Below are positions 511 through 54,131 of a DNA stretch of 64,000 nucleotides, piece by piece (the stretch's first letter is position 1; each line of letters starts with the position of its first letter). A model generated the notes under the pieces. It searched no databases, was not told the DNA's origin, and was given only the letters and a program-made list of their open reading frames with translations. This stretch comes from a virus, in the IMG/VR virus record IMGVR_UViG_3300029267_003703, positions 1 through 64,000 of that record; one strand, 5' to 3'. The translations under genes and the position numbers were made by a program.

Positions 511-777
511 ATGCTGTCGAAACTTCATCAGCCAACAAGTCCGTTCCCTGACGCAGTGCAGTGCGGGGCCTGCCGGGTCGAGGACTCCTTCAAGCTCTAC
601 AAGAACGGCTACGTCTACAACTTCGTGATGCGCAACCAGGTCGCAATAGAAGATCCGCACATCACCCTGATGAAGGCGCTGGCGTTCCAGATCCGTCATT
701 CCGTGCCGTACCCCGGTGGTGTACCATCGAGGACGCTGCGGGACTTCCTCATCAAGACGTCGGTGGTAGCTGTATGA
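511..777 (+). CDS. Small hypothetical protein in tail gene cluster
   Basis: An 88-residue protein that starts directly after the preceding stop codon and shares ATGA with the HNH gene behind it. It has two cysteines as C-G-A-C near residue 19 and an aromatic-rich middle, but no fold I can name. Gene order suggests it once lay directly before the large tail protein and that the HNH gene was inserted between them. A baseplate or tail-completion role is possible but only inferred. Confidence 0.6.
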   Translation: MLSKLHQPTSPFPDAVQCGACRVEDSFKLYKNGYVYNFVMRNQVAIEDPHITLMKALAFQIRHSVPYPGGVPSRTLRDFLIKTSVVAV

Positions 778-1271
778 ACCGGTTCTGGGAGAAAGTAGAG
801 AAGTCAGAGGATGGCTGCTGGGCCTGGGTTGGTGCCCTCAGCTCTGGATACGGCTCCTTCAAGTACGGAGAACGTAACCACAAGGCTCATCGAGTGTCGT
901 GGGCGCTTCACAACGGGCCCGTTCCCGAAGGAAAGTGCGTCCTCCACCACTGCGACAATCCCAGATGCGTTCGTCCTGATCACCTATACATAGGGGACAA
1001 GAAAGACAACGCGCAGGATAGAGAGAACCGTAATCGGTCGAATCACGCTGTCGGCAGTAGGCACGGCAGGCACACCCATCCTGGCCAAACGTGCGGAGCT
1101 AGGAACGGTAGGGCGAAGCTGACGGAGCAACAAGTTCGTGAGCTTCTGAATGCGCACTTCAAGCAGGGCATGAGGAAGACGGATCTGGCTCGGCAGTACG
1201 ACTTGAGCAAGACGACCGTCGGCCACATTGTGAGCGGTAAGCTCTGGCCTCACGTAGAAGGAAGGGTATAG
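774..1271 (+). CDS. HNH homing endonuclease with C-terminal helix-turn-helix
   Basis: A 165-residue free-standing homing-type nuclease of the HNH_3 kind. It begins with a C-W-A-W-x-G / G-Y-G-x-F motif. The nuclease core is L-H-H-C-D-N-P-x-C-V-x-P-D-H-L near residues 60-74, followed by G-x-x-x-x-N. The C-terminal 45 residues form an AP2/HTH-like DNA-binding region (L-T-E-x-Q-V ... L-A-x-x-Y-x-x-S-x-x-T-V). The longer open frame starting at 561 is a shadow; ATG 774 overlaps the previous stop as ATGA. The gene sits tightly between two tail genes and appears to have displaced the start codon of the next one. It probably cuts homing-free relatives of this locus and adds nothing to the virion. Confidence 0.9.
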   Translation: MNRFWEKVEKSEDGCWAWVGALSSGYGSFKYGERNHKAHRVSWALHNGPVPEGKCVLHHCDNPRCVRPDHLYIGDKKDNAQDRENRNRSNHAVGSRHGRHTHPGQTCGARNGRAKLTEQQVRELLNAHFKQGMRKTDLARQYDLSKTTVGHIVSGKLWPHVEGRV

Positions 1272-3211
1272 CCACGACCGTTTTCATCGAGCTCACCACG
1301 AACGCCTTCGAGAAGGTGTTCAAGGACCAGTCGAGCAACAAGACGGGAGCTCGTAGGGGGGCTGGAGCCGACTCTGTTCGCCGCCCGCTTCGGGGGCTCG
1401 AGGTCAAGGACGACACGCACGCCGTCATCCGTGTTCTTCGATCGACCGGGCAAGAGGTCCCGCTGGTCACTTCCAGCTACTTGGGCGGTGAGGGCCCTGC
1501 CTATACCAACTTCATCTTGCAGAGTGTGTCGGAGCAACGGCAGGAAAAGTCGCAGATCGTCGAGACGTTCGGCGAGGACTACATCTTCTTCTTCGGTGAG
1601 CGTCCTCGGATGCTGGCAGTAGACGCGGTGCTGCTCAACTCTTTCGACTTCAACTGGGAGGCCGAGTTCTGGGAGAACTACAATTTGTACCTCCGAGGCA
1701 CCAAGTGCGCCGAGCTCGGGGCCCGCGTCTACTTGTTCTACGACGACAACATCGTCGAGGGCTACATGATGGGGGCGCAGGCATCGAAGAGCTCGCAGAT
1801 CCCCATGCAGGTGACCATGAGCTTCACCATGGTGCTCACCAACTACTCGAACATCTCGTTCATCCGGTCCTCGAGGTACCCGGTTCGTCCGATGGCCACC
1901 AAAAGCTACTCGGAGAACAACCCGGAGGACTACCAGGTCATCGGCTTGGACACTTCGAAGAACCCAGGGTGGCTCCAACCGAAGAGGCGCACTGCCCTAA
2001 CACCAGAAGACAAGTTCCGAGAAGCACCAGTCGACAGAAGGTTGAAGAGTCGTACGGACATCACCGATAACGTCGACGAGTGGACAGGAGACCGACGGGT
2101 CATCCCTCTCGACTGGGAGAGTATCCGCGACGCCGAGCGGGCGGAGGCAGCCAGACTCGAGGACCAGGCCATCATCGAGGCGTGCAAGCGCGGGGCACTC
2201 GCGGACAACCCAGACTTCCTACGCAACACTGGTCTTGCCGGCGCCGGCGCCGGCTCCGCCATTCGCTCCCAGGTCGGTGTGGGGGCAAGTGCCCGGGCTG
2301 GGATAGGCGCGGGGGCAGGCGCTTGGGCAGGGGCAGGCGTCAACGCGGGCGCAGGCGCAGGGGCATACGCCGGAGCGGGCGCCTGGGTGGGCGCCGGCGT
2401 CGGAGCGGGTGGAACCTGGTCGGGCTCCGGAACCTGGTCGAAGTCGAGCTCGGGCGCGGGCGCCGGCTACTACGGCGGGCAGGGCGTAGGCTACGACCCC
2501 TTCAACCCGTTCATCACGAACCCTGGTGGGGCCATTGGCTACTACGCCGGCGCGGGCTACTACGGGCCCGGACAGAGCGGCACACAGGGCTACGGCTCTG
2601 GCAGCGCGGTCGCCAGCCAGGGTGGGGGCTACGTTGCAGGTGCGGGCGCCGGCGTCGGGTGGACCCCGGGGCAGGGCGTGTCGTCGGGCTCGTACGCGTA
2701 CTCTGGGCAGATCCCTTCGGAGAACCTGCCGTCGAACCAGAACTACTCTGGCAGCGCATGGATGCCCTACTCCACTCCGCAGGCCCCGGCCAGTTCCAGC
2801 CAGCGCGCTCAGGGGGCCTACTCTGGGGGGTTCTTCGGGGGCAGGTTTGGCGCGCAGGGCTACGCGGCCGCGGGCTACGCGTCGAGCTCGGGCGGCGGCA
2901 CGGCGTCGCAGCAGTACTACGCCGGCGCGTACGCAGGGTGGGACCCTATCAACGGCGGTCAGTCGTCGACTTGGAGCGGCAAGTCACCCACCGGCCGCGG
3001 CCTGCCGCCTGGGCAGCCCGGCGGCGGACTGTTCGGCGTCAGCGCGGTTCCTGGCAATCTCGGAGGTGGACCCATCGATCCGAGGACCGGCAAGCCCTGG
3101 TCCACCAACATCATCAAGGGCGCCTACAAGCAGGGCGCCTCTCAGTCGAACCCCTATGGGCGCGTTGACCAGGCCACCTGTGACGCGTACCGAGACGCAG
3201 GAATGCTATGA
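1268..3211 (+). CDS. Large baseplate/tail protein with silk-like Gly-Ala-Tyr C-terminus
   Basis: The first standard start is GTG 1316 (631 aa). The frame, however, reads as normal protein sequence back to an ATA codon at 1268 that overlaps the HNH stop (ATAG) and lies five bases after AAGGA (1258-1262), so I favour a 647 aa product. Residues up to about 300 form an ordered domain. It contains a V-K-D-D-T-H-A-V-I-R-V segment and a long aromatic stretch (W-E-A-E-F-W-E-N-Y) of the type seen in tail and baseplate connector proteins. From about nucleotide 2236 to 2950 the protein becomes low-complexity, dominated by GAGA, GAGS, AGAY and GYYG units. It overlaps the next gene by ATGA. The structural assignment rests on context. 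Confidence 0.8.
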   Translation: MATTVFIELTTNAFEKVFKDQSSNKTGARRGAGADSVRRPLRGLEVKDDTHAVIRVLRSTGQEVPLVTSSYLGGEGPAYTNFILQSVSEQRQEKSQIVETFGEDYIFFFGERPRMLAVDAVLLNSFDFNWEAEFWENYNLYLRGTKCAELGARVYLFYDDNIVEGYMMGAQASKSSQIPMQVTMSFTMVLTNYSNISFIRSSRYPVRPMATKSYSENNPEDYQVIGLDTSKNPGWLQPKRRTALTPEDKFREAPVDRRLKSRTDITDNVDEWTGDRRVIPLDWESIRDAERAEAARLEDQAIIEACKRGALADNPDFLRNTGLAGAGAGSAIRSQVGVGASARAGIGAGAGAWAGAGVNAGAGAGAYAGAGAWVGAGVGAGGTWSGSGTWSKSSSGAGAGYYGGQGVGYDPFNPFITNPGGAIGYYAGAGYYGPGQSGTQGYGSGSAVASQGGGYVAGAGAGVGWTPGQGVSSGSYAYSGQIPSENLPSNQNYSGSAWMPYSTPQAPASSSQRAQGAYSGGFFGGRFGAQGYAAAGYASSSGGGTASQQYYAGAYAGWDPINGGQSSTWSGKSPTGRGLPPGQPGGGLFGVSAVPGNLGGGPIDPRTGKPWSTNIIKGAYKQGASQSNPYGRVDQATCDAYRDAGML

Positions 3212-52683: not shown

Positions 52684-53667
52684 ATGGCATCTGGAAGTGG
52701 ACTGTTTTCGAACAAGGGGCCGCTCAAGCCTCACCTCACTGAGGGCAAGGGCGGCGTTGCTGGTGAAGTTGCGGACCTTCGAAGGGACGTAGGGGCCGCT
52801 CTTGGCGGCCTAGCGGCCTTGGCGGTCAACCATTGGGACTCGCCGCCAGCGGCTGACACCGACGGCATCAAGACGAGCGTGGCGAGCTCCGATGTGGCTG
52901 TGGAGTACACCGGTGACGACTTCGACGGCGCCGAGTTCTTGGTTGTGACGGGCACTCGTGACCTCGACGAGCTCACGTACGGCGCCGGCGGGGCGCTCGA
53001 CGGCGAGACCTTGTGGGTCAAGGTCGGGGCGTCCGGGGTGCTGCAACACATCACTCTTGCCGCTCCTGCGGACAAGGCCGCGGTGGCGACGCAGCTCACG
53101 GCCTTTACCGGCATCACGGCCACGGTTGACGGCGCGGACCACCTGGTGCTCACCAGCGCGACGCTGCCCATTCACATCGTGCGCGCGACCGGTAACCTAC
53201 TCGAGGATCTCGGGCTCGAACTCGGTGTCGGCGTGATGGTGGGGGCTCGGCCGTTCACGGTCACGACCTCCGACTCTGCGGCGACGTGGGCCGGCAACTT
53301 CACGGTGTGGGGCCGGGACGTTCGCGGGCGTCTTCTCAGCGAGACGAAGGCCTTGGCGAACAACACGACGATCTCTACCACCACCCACTTCAAGTCGATC
53401 GAGAAGTGGGCGGTGGACCCGCAGAACAACGCGGCCGGTACCCTGTTGGCGGGCTTCGGCGCCACGCTCGGCCTCGAGGCCGCGCCGAAGATGCGTTCGG
53501 GCCGCCTCGTGATCATGCAGGAGCTCGAGGATGGGGCTGCGCCGGCGGCGGCGGGCGCGTTGTCGCTGCCCTCAGCCAACCCGCCGTACGGCGCGTATAC
53601 CCCCAACAGTGCTCCCAACGGGGCGCGGGACTTCACGCTCTACTTCGAGGCCGACCCGACCATCTAG
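52684..53667 (+). CDS. Putative structural/decoration protein (327 aa)
   Basis: Its own promoter and a strong SD (AGGAGGTTCCA) suggest high expression. The N-terminus is Gly-rich and then helical (V-A-D-L-R-R-D-V-G-A-A-L), and the rest is beta-rich with Thr/Ala/Gly (residues 60-327). Residues 185-240 contain T-V-W-G-R-D-V-R-G-R-L-L-S-E-T-K-A. Composition and lack of a catalytic motif suit a decoration or tail-associated virion protein, but no homologue can be named. Its TAG shares CTAG with the reverse gene behind it. Confidence 0.6.
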   Translation: MASGSGLFSNKGPLKPHLTEGKGGVAGEVADLRRDVGAALGGLAALAVNHWDSPPAADTDGIKTSVASSDVAVEYTGDDFDGAEFLVVTGTRDLDELTYGAGGALDGETLWVKVGASGVLQHITLAAPADKAAVATQLTAFTGITATVDGADHLVLTSATLPIHIVRATGNLLEDLGLELGVGVMVGARPFTVTTSDSAATWAGNFTVWGRDVRGRLLSETKALANNTTISTTTHFKSIEKWAVDPQNNAAGTLLAGFGATLGLEAAPKMRSGRLVIMQELEDGAAPAAAGALSLPSANPPYGAYTPNSAPNGARDFTLYFEADPTI

Positions 53668-54108
53668 TTGAGCAACTGCTGCTCGTCCTTCTTCTCCACC
53701 AACAGATACGGGTTGCGCGTGCAGCCCGGCATGTGCTCCTCGAACACGCGGATTACCCACTGGTTGAGGATGTCGGCCGTGGCGGTCGCGTCTCTCGCTC
53801 CTGCGGCAGTCAGGGCTTTCAGCTGAGCGCTGGTCACGTCTGCCAGCAGGGAGGGGTGGTCGGCTACTGCCCTGACCGCGGACAGTACGCGGGCTACCTC
53901 CTTCACCCCCTCTGCGCTGACTGAGGCCAGCAGCAGCGCCGAGTCTTCGGGCTGCGTCTTTTGGATGACGAGGCCCGCAAGGTAGCGTTTGAACGGTGCG
54001 GGGAGGTTGTGGTCCGGCACGAGCTTCTCCAGGAAGAACTCGAACAGGGTGCGGTCGAACTTCCCCCCCTACGGTCTCCAGCTTCTCAAGGTCGAATTGT
54101 ACTTTCAT
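53664..54108 (-). CDS. Reverse helical protein, frame interrupted at a G7 run
   Basis: ATG 54108 on the reverse strand has a perfect SD (AGGAGG) nine bases upstream and opens M-K-V-Q-F-D-L-E-K-L-E. At a run of seven G (forward 54063-54069) the frame switches: the frame that carries the rest of the product (E-F-F-L-E-K-L-V-P-D, ending at CTA 53664) is restored if one G is removed. The corrected product would be about 147 residues, helical, with Ala-rich helices and D-A-T-A-T near its middle. Without the correction, translation would enter a low-complexity shadow frame. GTG 54020 would start a shorter version of 118 residues. Confidence 0.6.
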
Positions 54109-54131
54109 CTGTTTTCCCTCCTGGTATTCTA
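54102..54131. promoter_or_regulatory. Divergent overlapping promoters at 54.1 kb
   Basis: Forward: CTTTCA (54102-54107), 17-base spacer, TATTCT (54125-54130) preceded by CTGG, seven bases before ATG 54138. Reverse: TAGAAT (complement of 54126-54131), then AGGAGG and ATG 54108. The two -10 boxes overlap almost exactly and point in opposite directions. The reverse -35 is not clear. Confidence 0.5.

Follow-up and report, generated by a model that had tools for sequence, protein, structure and literature searches.

Free-standing homing endonuclease genes of T4-like phages (mobE between nrdA and nrdB, and the seg and mob genes) lie between conserved genes, and the start of mobE overlaps the stop of the gene upstream (UAAUGA), an arrangement suggestive of translational coupling, according to the sections of PMC2988022 that deal with them. 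The HNH genes 7.7 and 2.8 of T7-like phages (Klebsiella phage vB_KpnP-VAC1, Shigella phage ESh6, Citrobacter phage CR44b) fit snugly between structural genes with overlaps of the ATGA or TAATG type, and their terminal Trp-Arg-His codons (TGGAGGCAY) give GGAGG just before the next ATG. The locus described below resembles both: an HNH gene lies between two conserved genes, its start overlaps the stop of the first, and its 3' end offers a Shine-Dalgarno-like stretch to the second. The most likely explanation, which we consider quite probable, is that insertion of the HNH gene at the start junction of a tail protein gene was accompanied by loss of the ATG of the latter, and that the protein is begun by re-initiation at a near-cognate codon, ATA 1268 or ACG 1274. 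This and all other readings are drawn from the sequences of uncultured viruses.

The window, i.e. the whole stretch of 64,000 bases that was analysed, comprises the first 64 kb of an IMG/VR virus record of 85,447 bases. On its plus strand a small conserved upstream gene (511-777), an ORF ending in TGA whose jackhmmer homologues adjoin the tail gene in most relatives, is followed by an HNH gene of 165 aa (774-1271, with ATG 774 and stop TAG 1269-1271) and by the gene of a large tail or baseplate protein (1268-3211, the 5' end being approximate). The HNH gene matches the Pfam family PF13392 (HNH_3) with E=3e-14 as well as PHROG endonuclease/HNH families; it is the only HNH_3 gene within the 85 kb record, and it forms a complete ORF of its own between two genes, outside any recognisable intron or intein. 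Its ATG shares four bases with the TGA of the upstream gene (ATGA, 774-777), which bears out an earlier sequence-only reading of this stretch, where the overlap had been pointed out. At the other end ATA 1268-1270 overlaps the stop TAG (ATAG), and AAGGA (1258-1262) stands five bases 5' of this ATA, both as that reading had described. The Shine-Dalgarno-like stretch AGAAGGAAGGG (1256-1266, plus strand), within the 3' end of the HNH gene, has an anti-Shine-Dalgarno pairing of -3.6 kcal/mol.

The tail protein gave no match in Pfam or PHROG. An AlphaFold model of the first 220 residues (mean pLDDT 71) showed by Foldseek a weak likeness to tail-tube and baseplate-hub proteins (E 8e-5 to 1e-3, TM about 0.35), and the N-terminal domain may, as the model weakly suggests, adopt a fold of this kind. 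Vibrio and Salmonella phages encode distant relatives, which bear the annotation hypothetical or structural. The C-terminal half (2240-3100) is of low complexity and rich in Gly, Ala, Tyr and Ser, like structural repeat proteins, and the C-termini of the relatives are different, shorter, or other low-complexity tails.

An in-frame scan agreed with the earlier claim that the first standard start of the tail gene is GTG 1316-1318, and neither ATG, GTG nor TTG occurs in the frame between the upstream stop, from which it is open at 1241 (30 bases into the HNH gene), and this codon. Codon scoring, trained on the genes of the window itself and applied to 69 called genes, placed the beginning of tail-gene coding at 1271, the 15 codons before GTG 1316 scoring positive. 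The sequence-only reading had taken the frame as open and coding-like back to 1271, which was right for the coding and too short for the open extent. A protein with a truncated N-terminus, begun at GTG 1316, would use the first standard codon in frame; such a start is nevertheless very unlikely, since the start codon of the relatives aligns with ACG 1274, 14 codons upstream. These 14 codons score as coding and are conserved in relatives (VFIELTTxAF is encoded upstream of the GTG), a Shine-Dalgarno sequence at usable spacing is absent before the GTG, and a different arbitrary truncation would have to be supposed for every other lineage that has a non-standard start. Relatives beginning at the GTG site, named earlier as what would speak for it, were looked for, and none does so.

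Only two genes besides the tail gene were flagged for upstream coding among the 69, one explained by a frameshift at a G7 run and one by a non-gene upstream stretch. General use of odd starts by the virus was rejected, the tail gene being the only case among the 69 window genes. At the G7 run (about 54064-54070, within 53664-54110, minus strand) an ORF with an ATG at about 54109 shifts frame into a longer ORF, which may reflect an indel error, phase variation or frameshifting.

Scans of viral contigs and genomes yielded more than 50 tail loci, the upstream gene adjoining most of them. The site between these two conserved structural genes, occupied in the window, is without an HNH gene in about 20 relatives, where the genes abut (a gap of 15 bases or less). 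In these empty-site relatives the tail gene starts directly after the stop of the upstream gene and two codons before a conserved VFI, with ATG or rarely with GTG (L015, L041/L042, L083) or TTG (L068), as exemplified by L003 (TAATG AGC GTC TTC ATC GAG), the protein of which is 57% identical to that of the window. The window codon aligned to this start is ACG 1274, and ATA 1268 stands two codons upstream. The comparison with HNH-free loci, suggested with the sequence-only reading, thus confirmed a start just before VFI, at the position of ACG 1274 and not of ATA 1268; the idea that the HNH gene was inserted exactly over the ancestral ATG stood as regards exact insertion at the junction and loss of the ATG, and had to be given up as regards ATA as the ancestral position. 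Judged from these alignments, the gene at 774-1271 is a free-standing HNH gene, putatively a homing endonuclease, inserted exactly at a two-gene junction. The HNH genes of the window and L073 are 67% identical and their tail proteins about 50%, which fits the expectation for mobile genes.

An insert at the junction was found in 16 distinct loci. Plus-strand HNH genes are present in the window, L024, L025, L056, L071 and L073, minus-strand HNH or SANT-like genes in L004, L005 (the upstream gene of these two was not found within reach), L006/L007, L008, L011 and L033, and other DNA in L022, L026, L028/L029 and L070. Five of the 16 are without a standard start: L073, L024, L028/L029 and L006/L007 have ATC at the conserved position, and the window, together with its near-identical contig L002, has ACG there and ATA upstream. 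In L071 an ATG stands one codon before the conserved start position. The standard start has therefore been lost repeatedly at this junction following insertion, mostly in favour of ATC. Repetition on this scale greatly exceeds the background, in view of the rarity of AUG replacement in bacteria, in which ancestral AUG starts became AUU in 1 of 61,358 cases and CUG in 2 (PMC5622118, whose rates refer to bacteria and annotated starts).

In a maximum-likelihood tree the five non-standard lineages were separate, and at least four changes were forced by well-supported branches. A standard start was missing in 5 of 16 occupied versus 0 of 20 empty-site tree rows (Fisher p=0.012, kinship ignored). 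A phylogenetically paired test of insertion against odd start was not significant, the independent pairs being too few, so the association between insert and start loss is suggestive. At twelve cultured-phage loci with related HNH genes the inspected downstream starts were ATG or GTG, none being AUC.

Some further features of the junction were observed. In the minus-strand loci listed above TGATAG or TGATAGG stands mostly just before the tail start. The junction appears to be a hot spot at which several mobile genes insert, namely antisense HNH and/or SANT/HTH-like genes. L026 (2717-3006) and L028 (2685-2987) contain, in the interval between the upstream and tail genes, a homologous small extra gene of about 95 aa (MxLSIxIxDDG...), which fits snugly, with starts and stops overlapping or adjacent.

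A sequencing or assembly error could conceal the ATG in the window, which is a metagenomic contig with only one near-identical contig for its own virus. That contig, L002, nevertheless carries the same bases at ATA and ACG, and two other non-standard cases, L006/L007 and L028/L029, are each represented by two contigs from different IMG/VR datasets with identical junction sequence within the pair; although such contigs may come from one shared sample, this speaks against assembly error, which we regard as highly improbable.

A self-splicing intron holding the HNH gene, the excision of which would link the tail frame with the ATG upstream, might be thought of, as HNH genes are often found in introns and the HNH ATG occupies the position of the ancestral ATG. 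No Rfam family was detected, however, at gathering thresholds in the window or at relaxed thresholds in eight loci, the HNH ORF takes up the entire insert, and the HNH gene of L006/L007 is on the opposite strand, L028/L029 having another small gene. A group I or group II intron around the HNH gene was rejected because a recognisable intron RNA core was not found by Rfam, and the intron reading is scarcely credible. Hardly more can be said for programmed frameshifting that would fuse the inserted gene with the tail protein. The extension of the open tail frame into the HNH gene of the window would agree with it, but the frame of the insert is -1 in the window and L073, +1 in L024 and L028, and antisense in L006, and no slippery heptamer was recognised when the overlap was looked at by eye; the variable frame relation between lineages led to its rejection. 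A phage initiator tRNA for AUC was rejected too, as the window contains no tRNA and no initiator type was recognised in the other records examined. The records of L002 and of two ATC-start loci hold odd elongator-like tRNAs, none of which was recognised as an initiator; the tRNA-like genes in the records of L002, L073 and L024 (L175, L174 and L176, respectively) have odd anticodons or loops (AAU, AUA, 8-base loop).

That a non-standard start was created by insertion, as first proposed for the window, is well supported by the relatives; for the exact codon, given then as ATA, ACG is a further candidate and the one that aligns with the starts of relatives. A start at ATA 1268-1270 is favoured by its being the sole in-frame AUN codon at the junction, by its overlap with the HNH stop, by AUC in the other lineages and by the tolerance of IF3, which allows a mismatch at the third codon base only (PMC10158994), and we would give it nearly an even chance. 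The conserved-position ACG 1274-1276 as the true start is a substantial possibility, though one that falls short of even. It is one base from ATG, the standard or ATC starts of relatives align with it two codons before VFI, and its surroundings (GCC ACG ACC GTT TTC ATC GAG CTC) differ from those of the TTG in L026 (GCC TTG ACC GTT TTC ATC GAG CTC) in the start codon. The aligned Shine-Dalgarno spacing from 1256-1266 also favours it, being 9 (alternatively 5 or 7) to the ACG, registers that suit, and 3 to the ATA, for which the registers are 3 or less. Against ACG stand the other non-standard starts at the junction, all AUC and none ACG, and the acceptance by IF3 of only Watson-Crick pairs at codon bases one and two (PMC10158994). 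A possible history, suggested by the junctions of the window and L073, is that the HNH gene once ended in ATGA, sharing the ATG of the tail gene; in the window, the ATG would then have lost two bases and two would have been gained upstream, giving ATA and TAG.

In the explanation preferred here, the HNH gene would have taken over the ATG overlapping the stop of the upstream gene, as once used by the tail gene, and the latter, its ATG lost, would begin at the near-cognate ATA 1268 or at ACG 1274 in the ancestral position. Against this it may be said that initiation at AUH or ACG is normally weak and that the gene concerned is structural. We infer that ribosomes terminating at the HNH stop re-initiate at the near-cognate codon, initiation and coupling alike, and that the Shine-Dalgarno-like sequence within the HNH 3' end assists them. 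In E. coli re-initiation is carried out by 30S subunits; a Shine-Dalgarno sequence promotes the process and IF3 reduces it (PMC2268962). The last 36 bases of the HNH genes showed stronger anti-Shine-Dalgarno pairing than their interiors (mean -3.5 versus -2.3 kcal/mol, p=0.01), and 16 of 68 HNH genes of the family end in ATGA, overlapping the next start. These 3' ends, together with the TGGAGGCAY of T7-like phages, suggest that the inserted gene tends to equip the gene behind it with a ribosome-binding site, and coupling of tail-gene initiation to the HNH stop is plausible. It would not be general, since L006/L007 have an antisense HNH gene and L028/L029 a non-HNH insert; for L006/L007 one has to suppose that initiation takes place in the ordinary way, at an ATC backed by a Shine-Dalgarno sequence. 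L002 (IMGVR_UViG_3300029258_003476, 99.9% identical) lacks 136 bp of window 734-869, with 4-bp microhomology, so that the upstream gene is without its final codons and the HNH gene without its start; the deletion is either real or a misassembly, and, if real, the tail gene would be translated without HNH translation.

When 80 HNH relatives were surveyed for downstream neighbours, a glycosyltransferase-like gene (weak Stealth_CR2 match) was found directly behind the HNH gene in L158/L159. Its first codon is ATC, in an overlap with the HNH stop (ATCTTAG), and a standard start follows only some 60 bases further on. The only HNH-free relative found for this gene (L173, 55% identical) has ATG at the position of the ATC (ATC TTA GTT ACT TTA GCC TAC TGC in L158/L159 versus ATG CTG ATT GCC CTT GCC TAC TGC in L173), which indicates that the same change arose in an unrelated gene and virus.

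The repeated loss of the normal ATG at occupied junctions suggests that essential phage proteins encoded there probably start at codons not considered by gene finders. AUC, AUA and ACG almost never replace AUG in bacterial evolution (PMC5622118). It is tempting to speculate, as a tentative proposal held with less than even confidence, that mobile-gene insertion at start junctions repeatedly turns AUG into IF3-discriminated AUC (or AUA), that the essential proteins are then made via re-initiation, and that the changed codon may shield the site from re-cleavage. If true, the start-codon rules of gene finders miss real N-termini beside homing genes, and such loci would serve as a natural experiment both on the relaxation of start-codon choice by re-initiation and on the ways in which selfish genes limit harm to their hosts.

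Compared with the known systems, the overlaps of the T4-like genes concern the start of the endonuclease itself, which is AUG except in mobA (GUG), unlike the situation in the window, and loss of a standard start downstream is not described for the mobE, seg and mob genes in the sections of PMC2988022 that treat them. The ShiLan HNH genes in phage methylase genes are likewise not part of an intron or intein, and the host gene has to tolerate them; they are inserted inside the gene in another frame, whereas the HNH gene of the window stands at the start codon (PMC11855218). The T7-like HNH genes share with the window type the Shine-Dalgarno-like sequence before the next start, but their downstream gene keeps its ATG in the examined phages, Xanthomonas phage SAC having GTG. 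In the latter (L185, PV012638.1) the annotated start of the SSB protein lies inside the HNH gene, and the real start is likely the GTG overlapping the HNH TGA. The infC gene of E. coli is an essential gene with an AUU start, of the AUH type (cited in PMC9845219). The window tail gene would resemble it in combining an AUH-type start with an essential function, but infC is autoregulated by IF3 and has no link to a mobile gene, whereas in the analysed phages AUC, AUA or ACG follow insertions.
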